DNA of 52,978 bases from Okeania sp. SIO1I7 (lineage in GTDB: Bacteria > Cyanobacteriota > Cyanobacteriia > Cyanobacteriales > Microcoleaceae), in contig JAAHGF010000007.1 of assembly GCA_010672585.1 (NCBI GenBank), forward strand, positions 102,757 through 155,734, in the 5' to 3' direction. The notes under the pieces are model-generated. The model saw only the letters and a list, made by a program, of their open reading frames with translations, ran no database searches and had not been told where the DNA came from. Position 1 is the first letter of the stretch. Every line of letters starts with the position of its first letter. Of the stretch, positions 37,056 to 49,850 are shown piece after piece. A program made the translations under genes and the position numbers.

Positions 37056-37058
37056 ATT

Positions 37059-37145
37059 ATAGATGCTTTATTTGAGGGATGAGAATTAACTGCTGAACAA
37101 GTATTTAAGAAGGCTGGAATTCCCAATACAATTTTTACCTGTTGA
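37059..37145 (+). pseudogene. Decayed gene fragment, left bracket of the nucleotide cassette
   Basis: The plus-strand frame reads IDALFEG, stop (TGA), ELTAEQVFKKAGIPNTIF, C, stop. It matches 42288-42352, which reads the same peptide with different lesions; about 58 of 65 bases agree. Its left side is cut by an R3 element. The protein family is not recognised. The 37146-37254 stretch holds nothing else. Confidence 0.75.
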
Positions 37146-37254
37146 TTATATGATTAGTAGTGATGCATTATGATTATTTTGGTAAGTATTTCCTGCGGAA
37201 TGCTTATTTATTTTGGTCACGGTGTACTCTATTGTTCCCCTATTTCAGAGATGT

Positions 37255-38301
37255 TTATTGAAGATTGTTCTGTTTTGACCCACTACTATAAGGTATATTA
37301 TATTCATAAGCTGATTCCCACATCTTAATATCAATTGTATTTTTAAAATATTTTGAATTATCATCAACTAACTTGGCTTTTATTAGGCAGTAATGCATGA
37401 AATTTTTAAATTGCTTTTTTAGGGTTTCCAACCATAGTTTTTCTTGTTCAGATAAAGTTTGGTTCTTATAACAGTACCAATCATAAAAAGAAAATGGTTT
37501 TGGATAGATATATGTTAGCTCCAAATTCCAAATACCATTTGAAAATAACATTGGTAGTTCCTTTTCAATCGAAGCATGATTTTCATCACCTAATGACATT
37601 AAGTATGCTCTATATTCTCCACCAATTACCAAGTGTTCAATAGAACCAATCATACTTTTTCTAAAAATTTCAAGTCCATCTAGACCACCGTTACAATAAA
37701 TCTTTGCCTGTTTATCATTCATTACTGGAACATACGGAAGACCTGAAATAATGAGGTCATATTTATCATCAACAGAATCATATAGATTGCCAATATTATG
37801 CTTAATATTAGAATTCTTAGAATTGATATGAGAATTGATATTTGCTAGTTTTATTGCTCTATGGTTTATATCATAAGAGTCAACTTTAGCAAATTTTTTA
37901 TGGGCAGCTCTAATTCCATAAATACCACAGCCACAACCTAATTCTAGTAGGTTTAAATTATCGCTATTTGGTAAATAAAATTTTGAACATAACGATACTT
38001 CTTCTATGTAAGGTCTAAAAACTTCGTCAGTATTATTACCCTTCCAGTCACACAAAAAAATATCTCCATCAAATCTAAATATGTAGTATTTACTAAAAAT
38101 CTTCAAAGCATCTTTGTATAAGATACCGCTCTCTAAACAAGATGTTATAGAGGATAAGTCTATACTCTTTACATCTATAGACTGATTTTCATTAAACAAC
38201 ATTGAATAGTTTTCTGGAGCTTGATCGGCGAGGTATATTATTTCATTTTTTACTTTTGAATAATCCATATTATTAGCAAAATCTCTAGTAATATTAATCA
38301 T
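37255..38301 (-). CDS. Class I SAM-dependent methyltransferase, HemK-like
   Basis: A 348-residue protein. The SAM-binding motif I is LELGCGCGIYGIRAA (residues about 119-133), the acidic motif II is VDSYDINHRAI, and IISGLPYVP (174-182) occupies the place of the NPPY catalytic motif of N-methyltransferases, with the first two residues changed. The first about 100 residues form a separate domain. It might methylate a nitrogen on a small molecule or protein; the changed NPPY makes a standard release-factor methyltransferase unlikely. It is the last gene of a minus-strand cluster with SDR, OMP decarboxylase, GTP cyclohydrolase II and SLOG genes. Low GC and lack of core orthologue suggest transfer. 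Confidence 0.85.
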   Translation of the reverse strand: MINITRDFANNMDYSKVKNEIIYLADQAPENYSMLFNENQSIDVKSIDLSSITSCLESGILYKDALKIFSKYYIFRFDGDIFLCDWKGNNTDEVFRPYIEEVSLCSKFYLPNSDNLNLLELGCGCGIYGIRAAHKKFAKVDSYDINHRAIKLANINSHINSKNSNIKHNIGNLYDSVDDKYDLIISGLPYVPVMNDKQAKIYCNGGLDGLEIFRKSMIGSIEHLVIGGEYRAYLMSLGDENHASIEKELPMLFSNGIWNLELTYIYPKPFSFYDWYCYKNQTLSEQEKLWLETLKKQFKNFMHYCLIKAKLVDDNSKYFKNTIDIKMWESAYEYNIPYSSGSKQNNLQ

Positions 38302-38910
38302 AAATTATGTCATATATTGATATGATTATAAATCTATTCTGCCCAAATAAATGCAGAACAAGCTTCATTTAATTAGGGCTTGCTGATTAAATCTCAAAGC
38401 ACTGCTAAATAAAGGTAAGTGCCTTTTTGGGGCTTTGAAAAAGTGCCTGGTTTCCAGTCTAAAACGCTCAAAAAGTTAGTATTTTAGGCGCATAGTTGGG
38501 TAGAAAAATCATTCTTACAATTGTTACTCCTACCTCCTCGCTCATTCCCATTTATCCCCTCCTGGGAGGGGAAGAAGAAAAAGGGAAGATATGGGGAGAA
38601 ATAATACACAAAATTCAACACACCAAAAGAAGATTTTCGGTCAAAATTGATGCGCGAAAAGACTTGAATACCATAATTATATAGCGATAAAATTGGTTCT
38701 ATATCACAAATAAATTGTTTTGCAGATTCATGTTGTAAAGTTGAATCATTAGCATAATTTCTGCTATCTTTTGCACATATAGCAATCCGCGCATTAGTTG
38801 TGACAATTTTTATAATAGTTAATTTGAGCTAAAAACATGAGCAAATTCTGAGGACTGAGGACTGAGGACTGACTCCTAACTGCCACCAAAATATTGCAAC
38901 TTAAATAAGT
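38302..38910. other. Spacer with R2 copy inside the cassette
   Basis: Contains the R2 copy at 38368-38505 (listed separately), CTCCTGGGAGGGG at 38559-38571 shared with the 26-bp array at the window end, and GAGGACTGAGGACTGAGGAC at 38850-38869. No gene is supported; the short plus-strand frame here is repeat-derived. Confidence 0.55.
38368..38505. repeat. R2 element, left-end copy
   Basis: TTAATTAGGGCTTGCTGATT, AAATCTCAAAGCACTGCTAA, ATAAAGG, GCCTTTTTGGGGC, AGTGCCTGGTTTCCAGTCTA, CTCAAAAAGTTAGTATTTTA, GGCGCATAGTTGGG. It matches 52618-52765 almost block for block. Confidence 0.8.
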
Positions 38911-39624
38911 TTAACTATATTGACCTCCATTAATATTTAATATAGAACCAGTCAGATAATCTGGTGCATCAAAAGCAACATATTTCACAAAATTAACAAT
39001 TTCCTCAATTCTTCCTTTTCGTTTAATATGTGTACTTTCAACAGCCTGATTTTGCCTTTCTACAGAAACTCCTTTTGCCATTGTTGATTCAAATATACCT
39101 GGATTTACTCCTATAATTACTGCTTTTTTAGAAGAGAGGGATTTTGATAAACTTAAAACTAATCCATTAAGACCTGCTTTTGCAATTCCATAACCTATGT
39201 CTCTACTACCTACATAAGCAGCTGCAGAACCCACAATAATGACTCGATTTTGAATATTTTTTGCCAAACATTTTTTTAGTAAACCAATAATAAAATGAGA
39301 AGTTCCTATTAAATTAACCTGAATACTTTCATATATTTTTTCTTCTTCAAATACAGTTGAATTAAATGTTGGTTCTGCAAATTTTCCGATACAACTGACA
39401 ACAAGATGCTGTTGATATTTTTCAACAGGAATTTTTTCTATGGTCTCTCGAATTTTGTCTCTGTCTTTAAAATCACAATCAAGATAATATTTTAAATTTT
39501 TATTCTTGGTCGTTTGATATATATCTATTCCCAGAATGTCAGCATCTATATCGTCAGAATTAGCAAGAAAAGAACCTAAAGTTCCTTCCACACCTAATAT
39601 GATTAGTAATTTATTTTTCTGCAT
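38911..39624 (-). CDS. Short-chain dehydrogenase/reductase
   Basis: A 237-residue classical SDR. The dinucleotide motif is LGVEGTLGSFL (Gly11, 14, 17), Asp34 after the second strand favours NAD over NADP, and the catalytic residues are Ser133 (VGSAAAY), Tyr145 and Lys149 (YGIAK). The C-terminal DYLTGSILNINGGQYS is typical. It should oxidise an alcohol or reduce a ketone or imine. The start codon lies inside the last codons of the OMP decarboxylase gene (14-bp overlap), so the two are translationally coupled and probably act on the same pathway. Confidence 0.92.
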   Translation of the reverse strand: MQKNKLLIILGVEGTLGSFLANSDDIDADILGIDIYQTTKNKNLKYYLDCDFKDRDKIRETIEKIPVEKYQQHLVVSCIGKFAEPTFNSTVFEEEKIYESIQVNLIGTSHFIIGLLKKCLAKNIQNRVIIVGSAAAYVGSRDIGYGIAKAGLNGLVLSLSKSLSSKKAVIIGVNPGIFESTMAKGVSVERQNQAVESTHIKRKGRIEEIVNFVKYVAFDAPDYLTGSILNINGGQYS

Positions 39625-40528
39625 TTTTCATTTGCTCCAAATTACTGACAAAATTTTCGACATTTTTTCTAATTATTGTTTGATATTTTTCCAAAGATAT
39701 AGTTAAGTCTGAAGTATATGTTATAGCTCTGGAGATAGGTATTATTACACCTTTTATTTCCCGACCAAAATTGATTAAAAAATTTTCGATAGTTCCACCT
39801 TGACTCCCAACTCCTGGAGCTAAAATAATCGCATTAGGCATCAGTTTTCTTAAATTATTTCCCTCAGAAGGAAATGTTGCTCCAACAACAGCACCTATAG
39901 AACTATAACCATTTTTTCCGAGGCTATCTTTACTATAATTGTTGACAAGTTCTGCTAAATACTGAGAAATATTTTTTCCATCGAATACTCTATCTTGAAT
40001 CAATTTAAAACCAGGGTTGGAAGTTTTTACTAATATAAATATCCCCTTATTAAAGTTGATAGCTGATTCTACAAATGGCTGTAAACTGTCTTCTCCTAAA
40101 AAAGGGTTGATTGTCATACAATCAACGGTCATATCTGAAGTTATAGTCAAGCCGTTTTTCAATGTTGTTTTACCTTCTAAATATGCTTTGGCATAAGCTA
40201 GTGATGTAGAACCAATATCGCCTCTTTTCGCATCTAGAATAACCAAAATATTTTTATTTTTAGCATACTCAATAGATTTTGATAAAGCTGTAATACCCAA
40301 GGTTCCAAATTGTTCAAAATATGCAGATTGAAACTTGACAGCAGGAATCAGATCGTATGAACTATCAATAACAATTTTTGAGAAATTAAACAGTGCGTTT
40401 GTAATAGCTATAGAATTATCCGGTTCCGGTATAAGAAAAGTAGGCATCAAATTAAAATTGGGATCGATACCAACAACTATATGGCTTGTATTAGTAATTT
40501 TTTCAATAAGGCGATCGGCAAAATTCAT
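39611..40528 (-). CDS. Orotidine 5'-phosphate decarboxylase, group 2
   Basis: A 305-residue protein of the longer OMP decarboxylase group. The active-site block LDAKRGDIGST (Asp99, Lys101, Asp104) is intact, and FADRL, VGIDPN, VKFQSAYFEQFG, MTINPFLGEDSLQPF and the phosphate-binding LAPGVGSQGG follow. It should convert OMP to UMP. Most cyanobacteria use the shorter group 1 enzyme for pyrimidine synthesis, so this copy inside a transferred-looking cluster may serve a special pathway or protect against a self-made OMP decarboxylase inhibitor. It overlaps the downstream SDR by 14 bp. I leave the symbol blank because it may not be the housekeeping pyrF. Confidence 0.9.
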   Translation of the reverse strand: MNFADRLIEKITNTSHIVVGIDPNFNLMPTFLIPEPDNSIAITNALFNFSKIVIDSSYDLIPAVKFQSAYFEQFGTLGITALSKSIEYAKNKNILVILDAKRGDIGSTSLAYAKAYLEGKTTLKNGLTITSDMTVDCMTINPFLGEDSLQPFVESAINFNKGIFILVKTSNPGFKLIQDRVFDGKNISQYLAELVNNYSKDSLGKNGYSSIGAVVGATFPSEGNNLRKLMPNAIILAPGVGSQGGTIENFLINFGREIKGVIIPISRAITYTSDLTISLEKYQTIIRKNVENFVSNLEQMKNAEK

Positions 40529-40664
40529 AATTTATCTTTACTTTTAAATTGGTATTTTTGTAGTCTACTTTTGTAAAATATCTTTAATTCTCTTGCTGTA
40601 AATTACTTATGTTAAATCAACAAGTTTTTGATTTTATGGAGATGTGTATTATACCATTTAGTCA

Positions 40665-40727
40665 ATCCTATTCTTTATAATAATAGGTAATTATTAATTA
40701 TTAATTATTAATTATTAATTATTGAAT
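40665..40727. repeat. R3 arm fragment
   Basis: CAATCCTATTCTTTATAATA, ATAGGTAATTATTAATTATT and more TAATTATT units. It overlaps the 3' end of the GTP cyclohydrolase gene and supplies its stop codon. Confidence 0.65.
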
Positions 40728-41376
40728 CCCTACTCCCTACTCTCTCTTTTCTTGAGAGTTCTATTTTATGACCAAATTGCTCTTTTTTAGATATTAAATA
40801 ATTTCGCCATTCTGTTTTTTTACTTATTATTGGTATTCTTTGGTTAACCTTAATTCCATTTTCTTCTAAAAACCTCTCTTTATCGGGATTATTGGAAATT
40901 AGGTTGACTTCTTTAATGTTTAAATCTTGCAATATTAAAATTGCTGGATAATAGGTTCTTTGATCTGGTATTAAATTTAAACGTTGAAAAGCTTCAAATG
41001 TTGAACAACCTTCTCGATCCATCAGTGTATAACTTTTCAATTTATTCGTCCAACCTACACCTCTACCTTCATGGTGAAAATGGTATATAATCATTCCATT
41101 TCCTTCTGCATGAATCATTTCCATAGCTTTTGTAAGTTGCCAATTACAGTCACATCTTTGACAACCAAAAATATCACTTGTATAACAAGCAGAATTAATC
41201 CGTAGTAATAATGGAATGTCTGTATCTGTTATATTACCCTTGTAAATGACAGCGTGTTCAGTTTCTATATTACTATACTTGATTGTATATCCTCCCATGT
41301 AAAATTCTCGTTTATTCTTGTCTCTTAAAAAGACATTTAATTCCTTGTTAGTAATTGTGTATTCTGAAAGATTCAT
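40708..41376 (-). CDS. GTP cyclohydrolase II-like protein (RibA family)
   Basis: A 222-residue free-standing GTP cyclohydrolase II. The three zinc cysteines are present (Cys64, 75, 77 in SACYTSDIFGCQRCDC), EGRGVGWTNKLKSYTLMD (103-120) matches the GTP-binding and catalytic block (usual form EGRGIGLLNKLRAYxLQD), with Tyr116 kept, and LISNNPDK follows. It should open GTP to the diaminopyrimidine ribosylamine phosphate used for riboflavin, but the core motifs are diverged and it is not fused to RibB as in typical cyanobacterial ribBA. A dedicated role in a pterin-, deazaflavin- or nucleoside-type metabolite is likely. The C-terminus (SIINN) is repeat-encoded. Confidence 0.9.
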   Translation of the reverse strand: MNLSEYTITNKELNVFLRDKNKREFYMGGYTIKYSNIETEHAVIYKGNITDTDIPLLLRINSACYTSDIFGCQRCDCNWQLTKAMEMIHAEGNGMIIYHFHHEGRGVGWTNKLKSYTLMDREGCSTFEAFQRLNLIPDQRTYYPAILILQDLNIKEVNLISNNPDKERFLEENGIKVNQRIPIISKKTEWRNYLISKKEQFGHKIELSRKERVGSRDSIINN

Positions 41377-41399
41377 AGAATTATATTGTTTGATAATTG

Positions 41400-41560
41400 G
41401 CGATCATTTTACCGAAAAATTTTAGTTTAAAGCCTCCCCTTAGATAGGGGATAATAAATAAAAAATTTCATTATTAGTCAATCCTATCGGTTTCAAGGAG
41501 AGGTAATTAATAATTATTAATTATTAATTATTAATTATTAATTATTAATTGTTGAAATAC
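41400..41560. repeat. R3 repeat element
   Basis: GATCATTTTACCGAAAAATT, TTTAAAGCCTCCCCTTAGAT, AGGGG, CAATCCTATCGGTTTCAAGG, AGAGGTAATTAATAATTATT and repeated TAATTATT. It fills the gap between two cassette genes and supplies the stop codon of the upstream SLOG gene. Confidence 0.75.
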
Positions 41561-42091
41561 TTGATTAACTAAACTAACCGGATTGCTATCAAATATAACT
41601 TGACTATCTGTTTTCTTTTGAAAAAAATCAATCAATAATTTTATACATTCTGTTGCACCTCCTGTATGAGAAAGAATTCCAATTATTTTTTCCATATCAT
41701 AAGCAATTGAAAACTCATTTAGAGTTCCCCATCGTCCTCCAATAATAATAGCGGCATCACATTCTGCAACAGAAGATACGTTCCTATACTTAAGACAATA
41801 TTTTCGCATCTCTTTGTACTTATATTCTTTTGGGATTAAGACAAGACTATCGTATAATTCCAAGGCAGTTCCCATAATTGCTATATGTTGCTCCCGACTA
41901 TAAGCACCAGAAAATCCTATAGAATATCCACCCATAGCTTTAGCACCTTCAACAGCAGCTAGAGGTATACCTTTGCACGCTCCTGTAATAATAGTGTTTC
42001 CTGCTTTGGCAATTTCTTCTCCGATCTTTCTAGCTTTATTTGTAATATCTTCCTCAGTATCTATAGAAGCACCAAAAACACCTATTTTCAT
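41531..42091 (-). CDS. SLOG-domain protein (LOG / TIGR00725-like nucleotide-binding)
   Basis: A 186-residue Rossmann-like SLOG protein. I choose ATG 42091 because GGAG lies 9 bp before it; the alternative ATG three codons earlier abuts that GGAG. IGVFGASIDTEED is strand 1 and loop, TIITGACKGIPLAAVEGAKA is the second nucleotide-binding element, and IIGGRWGTLNEFSIAYD (116-132) corresponds to the PGGxGTxxE phosphate/catalytic motif. Family members bind or hydrolyse nucleotide derivatives (for example LOG phosphoribohydrolases release a base from a nucleotide). It is the first gene of the cassette, upstream of GTP cyclohydrolase II. Its last residues (LIINN) and stop codon are encoded by an R3 arm. 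Confidence 0.85.
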   Translation of the reverse strand: MKIGVFGASIDTEEDITNKARKIGEEIAKAGNTIITGACKGIPLAAVEGAKAMGGYSIGFSGAYSREQHIAIMGTALELYDSLVLIPKEYKYKEMRKYCLKYRNVSSVAECDAAIIIGGRWGTLNEFSIAYDMEKIIGILSHTGGATECIKLLIDFFQKKTDSQVIFDSNPVSLVNQVFQQLIINN

Positions 42092-42143
42092 AATAGACAT
42101 CTCCAGAATTTTGTATTGAATAAAAAATTAACAGGAGATTGTA

Positions 42144-42383
42144 GTGAATTATCAAAATCTTCAAAGTCTCTTAAAGATTATTGAGATGCAGGACTATTAA
42201 GAGTATGGGTTGTTGATTGTAAAGCCAGGAGTATTAGAGTTTTTTTATCCAGATTCACTACCACAAACTTATATGGGAAAAACTTTACTTATAGATGCTT
42301 TATTTGAGGGATTAGAATTAACTGCAAAATAAGTATTTAACAAAGCCGGAATTCCTACTTTTTTCATGAAAATGTTTAAATAA
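42144..42383 (+). pseudogene. Decayed small gene, right bracket of the nucleotide cassette
   Basis: GTG at 42144 behind ACAGGAGATT opens an 80-codon frame in phase throughout: VNYQNLQSLLKIIEMQDY, stop (TAA), EYGLLIVKPGVLEFFYPDSL, PQTYMGKTLLIDALFEGLEL, TAK, stop, VFNKAGIPTFFMKMFK. Two in-frame stops make it non-functional, but the ribosome site and end are preserved. The protein family is unknown to me. A second, shorter copy at 37059-37145 has the same orientation. Confidence 0.75.
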
Positions 42384-42404: not shown

Positions 42405-42662
42405 TTAATATACATTTAATTCCCTAATAATTTTTTCTCGTTTTTCTAGAGGAGATTGTGGTAATCTCTTCCCAAGTAAAAATTCCAATTCTGGAGAAAT
42501 AATTATAGTTCTATTATTCTCTATTCTGAGATGTTGGTTGACCTCTTGCTCCGTTAAAATCTGTTTGTTTATATAAGTTTGTAATAATTTATGAATAATT
42601 AGAAAAGAATGATAAATAACTGATGTTAACTTACCTCCGGGAATGTGAATATACTGTTCAAT
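42405..42662 (-). pseudogene. Open fragment of an unknown gene
   Basis: The minus strand is open for 85 codons with protein-like composition: IEQYIHIPGGKLTSVIYHSF, then HKLLQTYINKQILTEQEVNQ, RTIIISPELEFLLGKRLPQ, EKREKIIRELNVY. TAA immediately precedes it and no ATG, GTG or TTG suits, so it is probably the 3' part of a lost gene. Family not recognised. Confidence 0.45.
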
Positions 42663-42838
42663 GGTTTATTTTATATAGTATAAATACTTAAGCAAGCTAC
42701 AGATTTTATACTAATTTTCATGTTACAAATTGAACTGTGGAATGTGGGTAACTTATAGTTACTACATACACTATAAGTTTTACTCATGCCTAGTGACATT
42801 AGGTTGAGCTTTTATATAGAATAATAAACATCATCAGT

Positions 42839-43110: not shown

Positions 43111-44481
43111 ATGCCACTAAACTTACGAACTTTTTTACAAGCGACAAATCCAGGAAGAACTTTATTTTTAAGAGATAATCCTGAAGAAGATAACAATTAT
43201 TATATTGATTTTTCTTCGGTGCGGGGAGGTCAAATTATTGAGAATCTACGAGACAATATTACTTTGTTATCGCCAGATGTAGCGACTTGCGAATTATTTA
43301 CTGGACACATTGGATGTGGAAAGTCTACAGAGTTGCTAAGACTTAAAGCAGAGTTAGAGAGAGAAGGATTTCATGTGGTTTATTTTGACTCTGGGGAATA
43401 TTTGGAATACCATGATGTGGATATTGCAGATATTTTATTGGCGATCGCTCATAGGGTAATAGAAAGTATTGAGCGATTAGAACTTGAAGAAGCTAGAGGA
43501 CTTGAAAGATTATTTGAAGGTGCAGTTAAAGTATTACAAAAGGAGTTTGAACTAGAAGAAGTTGAACTGAAACCTCAAATTCCTAATGTTCCTGATGTTG
43601 GAATTAAGGCGAATAAAAAGGGATTTAGTCTTTCTTTTGGTATGGGTAAAATTACTGCTAAAGCAAAAGAAAGTTCTGAATTAAGGAAGAAGTTGAGGGA
43701 GTATATAGAGCCTCGAATTAGTAATACTATTGAAGCAATTAACAATGAAATTATAGAGCCTTCTATTGAGAAATTGCAACAGCAAGGTAAGAAAGGATTG
43801 GTGGTAATTATTGATAATTTGGATCGTATTGAGGATAATAAAAAACCTTGGGGAAGACCTCAACCAGAATATGTCTTTGTAGACCGGGGACAGCAGTTAC
43901 GTCAGCTAAAATGTCATCTTGTTTATACTATTCCTTTATCATTGCGATTTTCTAATGATTATGGATATCTAACTCAGAGGTTTTTAACAGATCCAAATGT
44001 GTTGCCAATGGTATCAATAAAGTTGCGTGATGGTAGTAATTATCGGGAAGGAATTGAATTACTTCAACAGATGGTTTTAGCAAGAGCTTTTCCTGAACTT
44101 GAATCAAATAAACGTCTCGAAAAAATTACAGAACTTTTTGATAATCCTAAGACTTTAGAGCTTTTATGTTTTGTTAGTGGTGGTCATATTCGTAACTTAT
44201 TAAGGTTCCTATTTGACTGTATTCGTCAGGAAAGGAATTTACCTCTTTCAAGTGAGACTTTGAAACAAGTAATTCAAAAAAAGCGCGACCAAATGGTTTT
44301 GGCAATTGAACCTTATGAATGGGAATTATTGCGTCAAGTAGTTGAGTCTAAAAAAGTTACGGGAGATGATGGATATAAGATTTTAATTCGGAGTATGTTT
44401 GTTTATGAGTATCGTGATGCTGAAGGATCTTGGTTTGATATTAATCCAATTTTAGAAGGTGCGGAAGAGTTGAAGTTATGA
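43111..44481 (+). CDS. P-loop NTPase, first gene of a two-gene signalling module
   Basis: A 456-residue ATPase starting at [20 protein letters not shown] (ATG 43111); an in-frame upstream ATG lies inside the R1 element and is rejected. Walker A is GHIGCGKST (residues about 65-73) and Walker B is [11 protein letters not shown] (about 230-240). Between them is a charged helical insert (about 115-220). [20 protein letters not shown] and [18 protein letters not shown] resemble the sensor-2/lid parts of AAA or KAP/STAND-like ATPases. No catalytic effector domain is seen. Its stop overlaps the next start (ATGA), so the two are translationally coupled and probably form a complex. From memory, similar pairs are widespread in filamentous cyanobacteria. 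Confidence 0.88.
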
Positions 44482-47400
44482 ATGAATTAAATTTATCTTT
44501 TGAGAGTTCTGATAATGAGCGATCGCTTGAAGATATAGTATGGACAATTGAAATGTCTCAGGGACAGTTTTGTTTAATATTAGCTGTATGTGACTCAACT
44601 AAGTTGCGCGATAATATGGCAGAAAAATTACAAGAAGTTTGCCCGAATATAGAAGAGATTGTTGTCAAGTCATCTGATACTTTAATCTATCCCCAACTTA
44701 AGGATATAAACAGTCAAAAACATCTATCAGCAATTATGATTCGTGGTTTTGAATCAGTTACAAAGATAGATCGAATGTTAATTTCTCTGAATCAAGTAAG
44801 AGAAGATTTGTGGAAGTCTTTTAAGTTTCCTATAATTTTATGGATTAATGGGGAAATTTCCAAAAAAATGATTCGACTTACTCCAGATATTGAGAGTTGG
44901 GCAAGCATAACTAATTTTAGTAGTTTCTCTAGAAAACAGGTTGATTACCAAGCAGAAAAGGTAGATAGATTTAATCAGAATCAAGGTTCTGAAGATAGCG
45001 ATGGATTGAAGAATAATAATTTTTTAATTGAGTTGTTTTCGATATTTTCTGTTAAAGTTCTGAGAATTTTTTTCTTGCTTAAATTAAGTAAAGAGTTTTT
45101 ATTTTCATCTTTTGACAGAAAATTAGCAGTATCTCCCAAGATAGATCAGGGTATAGAACTAGCCAAATCTAGTAATGTAGAAGCACTTATAGCAGCACTT
45201 CAGAATCGTGAAGAAGGAATAAAACTAGCCAAATCTGGTAATCTAGAGAAAGCTATATCTGCTTTTAGAAAAGCTTTAGAACTAGATCCTTATATCAATC
45301 TTGATATTACGGGAGAAACTCAAGAAACAGATCCAGAATCCTTTGCCAAAAAATTAGCAGCATCTACCAAAAAGATAGATGAGGGTACAAATAGCCAAAT
45401 ATGTAATGTAGAGACACTTATGTTGTCTGATTTCACAAAACCTTCATCTGGTTTTAAACCTGTAGAACTATATCCTAAAATCAAGCTTGATATTAGGGGA
45501 GAAACTAAAGAAAAATACCCCCAATTATTGGCCCCAAAATTAGCAGCATCTGCCAATATAGATGAGGGTACAGAACTAGCCAAATTTGGTGATTTAGAGG
45601 CAGCTATAGCAGCATTTCAGAATTGTAGTGAAGGAATAAAACTAGCCGAATCTGGTAATGTAGAGAAAGCTATATCTGCTTTTAGAAAAGCTTTAAAACT
45701 AGATCCTTATATCAACCTTGATAACACAGGAAAAACTCAAGAAAAAGACCCCCAATCCTTTGCCAAAAAATTAGCAGCATCTGCCAATATAGATGAGGGT
45801 ACAGAACTAGCCAAATCTGGTAATGTAGAGGCAGCTATATTTTTTTTTAAAAAAGCCTTAGAATTAAATCCTAATGTCCGCCTTGATATCACAGGAGAAA
45901 CTCAAGAAACAGATCCGGAATCCTTTGCCAAAAAATTAGCAGTACCTCAGAAGATCGAAGAAGGAATAAAACTAGGAAAATCTGGAAAACCTGAAGAAGC
46001 AGTAGCCATTTTAAGAGAAGCACTACAATGGGACCCTGAGATTGATATTTATCAGCACTTAAGTCAATTCAATGGTGGGCTAGATCGATGGGCAGATCGA
46101 GTTTACAATTCTCTAGAAGAGAAAGAAAAACCAGTTGCTCTGCGTATTTTCTGGGAACTTGTCGAGATAAAAAATGAAATAATTAACCCAGGTAAAGTTA
46201 ATTACAAATTCAGCGACGCTATTTTAGAAAATTTACCAAATCCAGAGCAATCTCTGGAACTTTTACAGCAAGTGACAAGCAAGTTGGCTGACCCAAAAAA
46301 TAGGTTAATTGAGATATATAAGTTCTCCTCCAGGGAGACAATTTTATTTATTACATATTCATCCTTGTTGTATGATTGGATAACTTTACAAAAATGGCTC
46401 AAAGATTATGAATCTGTAATAGAAATAACACGGGAAATTGAAAGGGTAGCTAAACGTTGGAAAAATCACCAAGCTAATGATGATTGGCTATGGCGAGGAA
46501 CACAATTAGTGGAAGCGGAAAACTATTTAAAAGAACATGGGCATTTAGGGCTATTAAAAGGTTTTGGTTATAAATTTATTGAAGCTAGCAAAGAATTGAA
46601 ACAAAAACAAATAGAGGAAGAACGTAGTCGATTAGAAGTTGTCAATAAACAATTGGAAAAATTAAATCAACTTAAAGATGAATTTTTAGCTAATACCTCT
46701 CACGAACTCCGAACACCTCTCAACGCTATAATTAACCTGGCGGAATCCATGATAGATTCTCCCACCGATCAACTATCAGAATCCCAGAAAAGCAATTTAT
46801 CTCTTATTATTTATAGTGGTTCTAGACTAGCTAATCTTATTAACGATATTCTAGATTTTTCCAAACTTAGAAACAAAGATATTCAACTTCAACAGAAATC
46901 AATTGGTGTCAAAGAAATCACTGAAATAGTTCTTACCCTAAATCAACCTTCAGTGAAAAATAGCGCCTTGAAACTGATTAATTCTATTGATAATAATTTA
47001 CCCCCCGTATATGCTGATGAAAATCGTCTTCAACAAATTCTATTCAACCTTATTGGTAATGCCATTAAATTCACTGAACGGGGTAAAATCGAAGTATCGG
47101 CAAAATTAGTTTCTGAGAAAAATCAGAGACAATTAGCCATTAGTATTTCTGACACAGGTATTGGTATTTCAGAAGATAAATTAGACAGTATTTTTGAATC
47201 TTTTGAACAAGCAGATGGAACTATCTCCCGTGAATATAGGGGAACAGGTTTAGGTTTAGCAATTACGAAACAACTTGTTGAATTACACGGTGGCAAAATT
47301 GTTGTAGAATCAGTGCTTGGAAAAGGTTCTTGCTTTACCTTTACTTTGCCTGTGTCTGAGAAACCAGCAGAAAAAATAGAGACTTCACCAATTTTATCTC

Positions 47401-49850
47401 CAGTCGTACAGACAACTGATATAAATCCTGAAGTTGATGCAGATAATCGAGACGTCACGTTAGCAAAAAAACATGGAGAATGCAGCAAAAATAATTCGGC
47501 AAAAATTCTAATTGTTGACGACGATCTTGTGAATTTAGAAGTGCTTGATAAGCATCTTTCTAATAATAATTATTCTGTTAATCGAGCTGACAATGGACGA
47601 GAAGCATTACAAATTCTGGAGAAAGGTTTCCAACCAGATCTAATTTTACTTGACATAATGATGCCAGGAATGACAGGTTTTGAAGTTTGTCAAAAAATCC
47701 GAGAGAAGTTATCTCCTAATGAACTCCCTATTATTTTTCTTACTGCCAAAAATCAAATTTCTGACTTAGTAAAAGGTTACAATGTAGGAGGAAATGATTT
47801 TATAACTAAACCTTTTTCTAAAGGCGAATTATTAGCACGAATCAAAACTCATATTAGTTTAAAAAAGAAAAATCAGGAAGTTCAAGAGCAGCGTCTACGA
47901 GCTGAAATTGCTGAAATTGAAACATTAATTTCCTTATCTCAAGCTCGTCTATTATCTGATGATTGGTTAGGTTCTTTGGATGCTGTTTTTCAAGCGGGTA
48001 AAAAGTTACAAAATGTGCAAGTTCTACCCGATCTGAAAATGAAAGTAACTTGCCAACTTAGACAAGTAGTTGACAACATCTCAGAGAAAAATAGTTTCCA
48101 ATTTCATACAGCTAAAGTTAACAAAATTATCTTTAGTCCAGATGGTAAAACTTTAGCTTCAGCTAGCAATGATGGTACAGTCAAACTCTGCCGATTAGAT
48201 GATAGTTCAATAGTTACTCTTGAAGGTCATAATAATCCAGTGACTAGCGTTAGTTTCAGTTTCGATAGTCAAATATTAGCTTCTGCAAGTCAAGACAATA
48301 CAGTAAAACTCTGGGGATTAGATGGTACTGAACTAGGAACTTTTGAAAATAAGGGAAATAAAGTAATTTTTTCTCCTAATGAACAAATATTAGCTTCTAC
48401 TAGGGAAGGAACAATAAAGTTTTGGCAAATAGATGGTACGAAATTGCAAGTTATCCCTGATTTAAGAGTAATTGAAGACTTAAGTTTTAGTTCGTTGGAA
48501 CAGATTTTAGTTTGTGCTACTGAAGAGGGTATTAAACTGTGTCAATTAAACAATCCTGATATTCTAAGCATTCATTCCGATCAAGATTGGGTAACAAGTA
48601 TTAGCTTTAGTTCTAATGGAAAAAGTTTAGTTTCTGCCAATCAAGATGGTGTAATAAAACTCTGGCATTGCAATGATGGTAAATTAGAAAAACGGAAAAG
48701 TTTTGCAGCATATAAAGAGCCAATAACTAGCTTGATAATTAGTCCTAATGGCGATAAATTTGCCTCAAGCAGCGAAGATAGAAAAGTTAAAATATGGGAT
48801 TTACAAGGCAATATAATTAATATGTTTAGAGGTCACAGAGACAAAATTACAAGTCTTTGTTTCCATCCCAATAATCAAATTATAGCTTCTGCTGATAATA
48901 GTGGTGCAGTAAAATTATGGAGTTTAAGAAATAACAAACCACCAACTTTTTGTAATCATAATAGCAAAATTACAACTGTTAAATTTAGTCCTGATGGTAA
49001 AACTCTGGCTTCTGCTGATGAATATGGCAATATAAAATTATGGCAAACAGATGGAACAGAACTTGAAAGCTCTCAAACTTACAATAAAAAAATAACCGCT
49101 CTTAGTTTTCATCCAAATAGCGAAATTCTTGCTTTTAGTGATGATGATGGTAATGTTGATTTTTTATCATTAAATAATAGTGAAATACCATTATCTATAC
49201 TTCAAGATTTCGGAATTACTAGCTTAAATTATTTTGGTTCTGATGGTAAATTTATAGCCTTGACTCAAGAGAATGGTAATCTTGAAATTTTTGACCTAGA
49301 TGGTAACTCATTAGCTGTCGGCAGAAATGGCGATCGAATTATTAGTATGGATGTTAGTTCCGATAGTCATACTTTAGCCACTGTTGGTGCAGATAATAAA
49401 ATAAAAATCTGGGATTTCACAAACAATAAACTATTAGAAAAATTCTCTTTTTCAACTAACAGTAGTGTGACTAAAATTCGCTTTAGTCCTAATGGAGAAA
49501 TTCTAGCTTCAGCTAGTGAAGATTGTACTATCAAACTTTGGAATCTTAATGGTGAAGAATTAGCAATTTTCAAAGGACACAGCAAAGCTATTACTAGCAT
49601 TAGCTTTAGTCCTGACAGTCAAATTTTAGCCTCTGGTAGTAATGATAATACCATCAAATTGTGGAGCCTTATTAATGAGACTGAAATATATACGTTACAA
49701 GAGCATACCCAACCGATTACAAGTATAGATTTTAGTCCAGATAGTCAAACTTTAGCTTCTGCAAGTAATGATAAGAAAGTAATTCTGTGGAATTTGAATC
49801 TTGATGATTTACTACGTCGTGCTGATGAATGGTTATATCATGTCCGGTAG
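44478..49850 (+). CDS. Giant hybrid: TPR-like repeats, STAND-type helical region, histidine kinase, receiver, 14 WD40 repeats
   Basis: A 1790-residue protein. Residues 1-155 are a P-loop-less alpha/beta domain (FCLILAVCD, then FPIILWING). About 216-504 are TPR-like repeats with near-identical DNA units. About 505-700 resemble the helical region of STAND proteins ([15 protein letters not shown]). The histidine kinase follows: HisKA with His742 in [12 protein letters not shown], then HATPase boxes [19 protein letters not shown] and GTGLGLAI. The receiver has ILIVDDD and phospho-acceptor Asp1059 in [10 protein letters not shown]. Residues about 1140-1200 are the helical lead-in typical of STAND-WD40 proteins, and about 1210-1775 hold 14 WD40 repeats, enough for two propellers, ending [12 protein letters not shown]. 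Its partner is the NTPase encoded immediately upstream. Ligand and output are unknown. Confidence 0.93.

Follow-up and report, generated by a model that had tools for sequence, protein, structure and literature searches.

The window analyzed here, a stretch of 52,978 nucleotides of contig JAAHGF010000007.1 from the 9.48 Mb genome of Okeania sp. SIO1I7, carries on its minus strand a conserved run of four genes encoding, in order, a SLOG/LOG-like protein, a free-standing GTP cyclohydrolase II-like protein (GCHII), a group 2 orotidine-5'-phosphate decarboxylase (OMPDC) and a short-chain dehydrogenase/reductase (SDR). On balance, our results favor the view that these genes form the core of a small and rare cyanobacterial biosynthetic cluster for converting a nucleotide into a metabolite of the free-base or modified-base kind. 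We read the locus as a specialized-metabolite cluster because its core is conserved, because the tailoring-type enzymes next to it vary and because it is redundant with housekeeping genes, a usual mark of such clusters. By their sequences, the core genes look like spare, altered copies of enzymes of vitamin B2 and uracil-nucleotide synthesis.

Five complete reading frames lie on the minus strand between positions 37255 and 42100. The first encodes the LOG-like protein (41531..42100, 189 amino acids [aa]), a proposed nucleotide phosphoribohydrolase that matches the SLOG cluster 4 profile (LDcluster4, PF18306) with 95.2 bits against a cut-off of 26.3, and is followed by the gene for the 222 aa GCHII (40708..41376), a protein with altered conserved motifs that matches the PF00925 profile (146.2 bits, cut-off 23.3). 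The OMPDC (39611..40528, 305 aa), which keeps the DAKRGDI motif and the other motifs of its family, scores 247.4 bits on the group 2 equivalog TIGR02127 (cut-off 110.6), and the SDR (38911..39624, 237 aa) scores 70.8 bits on adh_short_C2 (cut-off 27). Beyond them lies the gene for a HemK-like class I methyltransferase (37255..38301, 348 aa; MTS, 40.2 bits, cut-off 23), a lineage-specific neighbor outside the conserved core. These Pfam and NCBIfam scores confirm the five families named in the initial annotation, and the coupling of the SDR to the OMPDC that it described is seen as a 14-nucleotide overlap of the two frames in the window, the overlap measuring 1 to 14 nucleotides across all five loci with an intact core. 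The bounds it gave to the cassette, 37059..42383, do enclose all of the genes, but they begin within the left copy of a flanking direct repeat and end 28 bases past its right copy.

The LOG-GCHII-OMPDC-SDR core is rare and patchy in cyanobacteria. Counting the window's own genome, as in all counts of relatives given here, GCHII orthologs were found in four of 59 relatives, namely the own genome, G004 (a genome of the same genus; 94% identity), G011 (89%) and G012 (64%), with the RibBA domains set apart at 38-44%. At an E value of 1e-48 or better, the protein was present in six of 388 genomes of the order, which adds G314 and G264, the latter from another family, and in three of 386 genomes of a phylum sample overlapping the order sample. 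The SDR profile recovered 7/388 genomes of the order (adding G008), 6/61 of the family and 1/217 of the family of G264, and one scan named contigs of Okeania sp. SIO2C9 (94%) and Microcoleaceae cyanobacterium MO_207.B10 (89%) as carrying relatives of the cassette GCHII. The order of the four genes is intact in five loci, those of the window, G004, G012, G264 and G314, one of them from another family; in G012 a halogenase gene is inserted between LOG and GCHII. Two partial copies were left out of these intact-core counts: G011 has a broken LOG gene and a broken GCHII start, and G008 retains only the SDR and OMPDC residues 197-305, at the end of a contig whose 3.8 kb are too few to judge. The core thus recurs in four genomes besides that of the window, which bears out the conserved neighborhood that the initial annotation had put forward as a check.

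The same comparison reduces the five-gene unit originally proposed to four genes, since the methyltransferase adjoins the core in only two of the five intact-core loci (window and G004). Searches with tblastn located it in these two genomes and as a fragment in G016, with none in the loci fetched for G012, G264 and G314, and the genome search placed it in the same three of 59 relatives, G264 and G314 being covered through their 20 kb loci. Neither a GCHII ortholog nor the SDR was found in G016, which keeps the methyltransferase fragment.

Carriage by plasmids, phages or viruses was rejected, as searches with GCHII and the SDR returned only distant matches. Plasmid records matching GCHII numbered 207, all below 60% identity (43.7% was the best among the best 20 of 207), and those matching the SDR 120, again all below 60% (29.0% the best among the best 8 of 120); five phage records matched GCHII, at 40.7% for the best, and one scan yielded no relative of the SDR on viral contigs. 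Recent transfer between families is likewise not supported, because cassette identity between genera is mostly no higher than that of RibBA and PyrF1: in nine between-genus pairs it was equal to or lower than both, except for the LOG-like proteins of G314 and G264 (77% versus 74 and 71%). Within the genus, the cassette proteins of the window and G004 are 94-97% identical, against 87% for RibBA.

All five window genes are under purifying selection relative to their nearest relative. Between the window and G004 they differ by 76 synonymous and 72 nonsynonymous changes over 804 and 3099 sites, respectively, a departure from neutrality that is significant for the five genes together (P = 1.2e-16) and for single genes (P = 5e-07 to 0.014). 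More distant pairs gave ratios of nonsynonymous to synonymous substitution rates (dN/dS) of 0.09-0.31, with dS mostly saturated and not computable in three GCHII pairs. The AT-richness pointed out earlier was also recovered, with a GC content of 28.7-32.8% in the cassette genes versus 35.0% for the window; 18 other open reading frames (ORFs) measured in the window lie at 33.2-43.1%, apart from one at 29.2%, and in the window, G012 (OMPDC left out), G264 and G314 the core genes fall below their locus in GC content. Promoter-like sites (36) were about as numerous as expected from shuffled sequence (38.4), and the six terminator-like sites (2.5 expected) all fall inside coding sequence, three of them on the strand of the genes, and so carry no information on an operon.

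The cassette is separate from the RibBA of the cell and from its other pyrF, in line with the earlier remark that its genes are unlike the usual arrangement of ribBA and pyrF. Besides the cassette copy, the genome encodes two further proteins of the GCHII type, a RibBA on contig C1 (a 593 aa frame) and a 415 aa GCHII-like protein on contig C44, and two further proteins of the OMPDC type, on C41 a PyrF of 239 aa and on C66 a 502 aa frame that includes an OMPDC domain. Lack of any other ribA or pyrF in the genome had been named as a result that would refute the initial annotation, as had the absence of the gene neighborhood from every other genome, and neither was found. RibBA and a PyrF of 239-254 aa, whose size and strong PF00215 match lead us to class it as group 1, occur elsewhere in all five intact-core genomes (window, G004, G012, G264 and G314). 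No other rib genes were recognized beside the core in the window or in loci L034, L035, L066 and L067, where some neighbors were scanned and the others assessed visually in listings of their ORFs. The C44 protein (G000:C44, L003:1366-2613), a member of the GCHII superfamily, resembles by eye the structures 7ej3 and 7eev, which the PDB names GTP cyclohydrolase II and which we take to be UTP cyclohydrolases; it is possibly a UTP cyclohydrolase itself.

To delineate how far the cassette GCHII has diverged, its five copies were aligned with eight cyanobacterial RibBA proteins, the C44 paralog standing outside the alignment, and the 131 columns that are fixed in RibBA and ungapped in the cassette proteins, linker positions included, were compared. 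Identity in all five cassette copies is seen at 47 of these columns, among them three Cys, a D-x-R pair and a Tyr, and replacement in all five at 59. C64, C75, C77, Y116, D138 and R140, which by correspondence with Escherichia coli RibA we assume to be zinc ligands and catalytic residues, are invariant in the five copies. Relative to the eight RibBA, HSEC becomes NSAC, VEAN becomes FEAF and QEGRGIGL becomes HEGRG[AV]G[WL]. HSEC and the AN of VEAN are present in the eight RibBA and in three solved GCHII, versus NSAC and AF in all five cassette copies; HEGRG is found also in the RibBA 4i14, and the change from QEGRG to HEGRG alone is not special. The cassette protein falls short of the RibA equivalog TIGR00505 (148.2 bits, cut-off 205.85) and passes the broader RibA subfamily model NF001591 (163.1 bits, cut-off 148).

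These results bear on the proposal that the cassette makes no new product and that its enzymes are isozymes, kept as a backup or under separate regulation, of riboflavin and pyrimidine synthesis. The three Cys, D-x-R pair and Tyr with their presumed roles, the score above the NF001591 cut-off, the ordinary motifs of the OMPDC and the genome of G011, where the search for another RibBA or free PyrF came up empty, all speak for it. Nonetheless, with other RibBA and PyrF copies present in 5/5 intact-core genomes, 59 of 131 RibBA-fixed columns replaced throughout the cassette proteins, no further genes of riboflavin or pyrimidine synthesis noticed within the cluster and tailoring-type enzymes alongside the core, we regard simple isozymes as improbable.

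The rebuilt motifs also leave room, as a tentative alternative, for a GCHII that would open a nucleotide other than GTP or give another outcome on GTP, with the OMPDC as a biosynthetic decarboxylase or as a resistant target; were the latter true, the product would be expected to mimic orotidine 5'-phosphate (OMP). Such a pathway would be a new class among those for nucleotide-derived natural products. A separate and unlikely scheme is pyrimidine opening, in which the OMPDC would make UMP, GCHII would open a uracil nucleotide, the LOG-like enzyme would cleave the ribosyl product and the SDR would reduce the resulting aldehyde. This scheme uses all four core genes in one line, accommodates the changed motifs of GCHII and has a described relative within the superfamily, a UTP cyclohydrolase (known here from a title cited in PMC12507026). 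Set against it, canonical PF00925 matches the cassette GCHII with 146 bits, its own profile gives only 28 bits on 7ej3 and 7eev, the genome already has in the C44 protein an enzyme that by eye is like these two structures, and UMP is abundant, an extra OMPDC not being needed for its supply.

The remaining core proteins retain the residues of their families. In the LOG-like protein, Arg106 and Glu129, an Arg/Glu pair of the phosphoribohydrolase type, are invariant in all five aligned cassette copies, and in a weak second-domain hit of a profile alignment (3.2 bits) they fall on an Arg and a Glu of 1wek, a structure that we take to be LOG-like. The 23-residue spacing of this pair matches that of Arg95 and Glu118 in PtnC, named as potentially catalytic in the available text on that enzyme (PMC7109123). 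The protein misses the cut-offs of the LOG family itself (NF058542, 22.7 of 300 bits; TIGR00730, 24.3 of 96.35 bits) and belongs to SLOG cluster 4. Repeats of the TTAATAATTAAT type, at 40684-40723 and 41504-41553, close the GCHII and LOG genes on the 3' side and supply the final residues (-IINN) of both proteins.

SLOG proteins occur in nucleotide-signaling systems, and this link could suggest a defense or nucleotide-signaling module built around a SLOG sensor, as could weak PADLOC matches to PsyrA (LOG-like protein, 24.5 bits) and to mad2 (methyltransferase, 43.6 bits). Three of the five proteins have no PADLOC match, however, and none of the matches is firm; Pfam reveals no evident effector domain in the five proteins, the SDR lacked a relative on viral contigs in the scan mentioned above, and the halogenase and monooxygenase beside other copies of the core suit biosynthesis. 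We consider such a module very improbable.

In the OMPDC, the D-x-K-x-x-D-I motif (D99-A-K-R-G-D-I105) is invariant in 6/6 aligned copies, and its family motifs are shared with the solved enzymes 3r89 and 3v75. It is 27% identical to the host PyrF1, the sole host enzyme in that comparison, to which the 502 aa OMPDC-domain protein did not belong. Ser133, Tyr145 and Lys149 of the SDR, presumably its catalytic residues, are likewise invariant in six of six aligned copies, and the protein is closest to FabG-type reductases, which says little about its substrate.

The genes next to the core differ between lineages. The methyltransferase of the window reads GLPY in place of NPPY, the usual motif of such enzymes, in agreement with the altered motif first noted in its translation; it stays under every NCBIfam cut-off, coming nearest with 79.8 of 162 bits. 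It has a match in MJ0882 and weaker ones in gentamicin methyltransferases. The inserted flavin halogenase of G012 (L035:1158-2891, 577 aa) matches tetracycline 7-halogenase (E = 1.3e-153) and PltM (E = 2.9e-104), in a locus whose ORFs, listed over 31 kb, include no recognizable polyketide synthase; an EamA-like gene, present as two ORFs, precedes its LOG gene, and an MFS gene stands tail-to-tail with its SDR. G264 and G314 each have a flavin adenine dinucleotide (FAD)-dependent monooxygenase, 67% identical to one another and separated from the core by 0.8-1.1 kb, on the downstream side in one locus and the upstream side in the other, for which the nearest curated models and solved structures are HpxO- and salicylate-hydroxylase-type enzymes. 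Among eight genomes searched, these two have the enzyme; three others gave a match of 25% and the remaining three gave none. In the window and G004 the methyltransferase is accompanied by a decayed DAO-type FAD oxidoreductase, an 86 aa remnant in the window (42408..42665, minus strand) and two pieces in G004, and in G016 an intact oxidoreductase goes with the methyltransferase fragment. The intact oxidoreductase (496 aa, L078:6398-7888) lies beside a ksgA-like ORF.

Three pairs of direct repeats flank the cassette, at 36612-36694/42825-42907, 36784-36833/43019-43068 and 37057-37123/42289-42355. The innermost pair, which brackets the cluster on the plus strand with a left copy (37057..37123) 90% identical to the right (42289..42355), consists of decayed tails of a Uma2-like gene, a name given by eye from likeness to an ORF in L078. 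Such repeats may have served as substrate for the deletion of the cluster and for its losses in relatives. Farther out, a 1790 aa protein (44478-49850) shows by eye TPR-like repeats and histidine-kinase, receiver and WD40-like stretches in its translation. Upstream of the G264 cassette, a translation judged in the same way (L066:5158-7167) is NADPH-oxidase-like with EF-hand-like stretches and lies beside a LysR-like ORF.

Together, these data are consistent with a nucleotide-derived product, for which a sequence of steps can be suggested. The GCHII-like enzyme would act on GTP or a close analog and open its imidazole ring by hydrolysis to yield a diaminopyrimidinone ribotide, the LOG-like enzyme would remove ribose 5-phosphate, the SDR would reduce a carbonyl or imine intermediate and the tailoring enzymes would add methyl, hydroxyl or halogen groups. 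Exchanging a sensitive enzyme for one of a different type is a known route to resistance, and the most likely role of the group 2 OMPDC would be to keep UMP synthesis going if the host OMPDC is inhibited by the product or by an intermediate; decarboxylation of an OMP-like intermediate is our second choice, self-resistance being placed slightly ahead of it.

Several observations weigh against this reading. GTP is doubtful as the substrate of the cassette GCHII, because motifs common to the eight RibBA are replaced in it, and the ordinary motifs of the OMPDC give no argument for either a new reaction or resistance. The tailoring neighbors vary by lineage and could be chance neighbors; in the window, neither kind of FAD enzyme accompanies the core, and the pathway there may be a reduced one. 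We saw no transporter or regulator that adjoins every copy of the core. G011, an 83% complete metagenome-assembled genome, yielded no RibBA and only one free PyrF-type protein at most, that of the cassette, and its LOG and GCHII frames are broken; we treat the missing RibBA and PyrF as probable incompleteness of the assembly. Should the cluster nevertheless be biosynthetic, it belongs to those without polyketide or peptide synthases, which are easily missed by genome mining, and the combination of SLOG cluster 4, divergent GCHII, group 2 OMPDC and SDR could serve as a four-gene marker to reveal a possible new family of nucleotide analogs in cyanobacteria. If the OMPDC is indeed a resistance copy, the target of the product is already known: pyrimidine synthesis.

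The initial annotation knew of no described pathway with this gene set, and the literature searched, among the papers listed and as far as their accessible text extends, turned up no description of a LOG-GCHII-OMPDC-SDR set, which is weak evidence of absence. Cyanobacterial RibBA belongs to the same fold family as the cassette GCHII, from which it is set apart by the 59 replaced columns against 47 shared. The OMPDC recalls pyrazofurin, a nucleoside antibiotic targeting OMP decarboxylase, but the accessible text of the review that treats it (PMC8724604) does not contain the words "cyclohydrolase" and "phosphoribohydrolase". Pfam and NCBIfam, moreover, identify none of the five window proteins as a C-glycoside synthase. 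Judged by analogy, the OMPDC does not fit the precedents of 8-azaguanine, pseudoiodinine or vicine. The vicine pathway is not known to us to involve a bacterial LOG-OMPDC-SDR set. In faba bean, GCHII activity is diverted by VC1 to the pyrimidine natural products vicine and convicine, VC1 differing from the cassette protein, according to the portion of the report available, in being an isoform of a bifunctional plant riboflavin enzyme (PMC12273248). The toxoflavin cluster (tox) joins a dedicated GCHII-like gene to methyltransferases, as does the cassette. The same holds for the psd cluster of pseudoiodinine (PMC9911603), although the partners in psd and tox are different (glyoxalase/dioxygenase, sulfatase-modifying-factor, WD-40 and RibD-like proteins) and the psd gene list, in the part of the text available, has no LOG, OMPDC or SDR. 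The 8-azaguanine (pathocidin) ptn/azg cluster of Streptomyces differs in its use of a GTP cyclohydrolase (GCH) I-like protein, PtnA, and of nitric oxide chemistry, neither of which is represented among the five window proteins; in the accessible text PtnC did not cleave the diaminopyrimidinone ribotide (PMC7109123), and the word "orotidine" is absent from the main text, so far as available, of both papers compared. Its pairing of PtnA with the LOG-like PtnC (PMC7109123) nevertheless couples the opening of the GTP ring to a LOG-like nucleotide nucleosidase, much as is proposed here for the GCHII and LOG-like proteins of the cassette.

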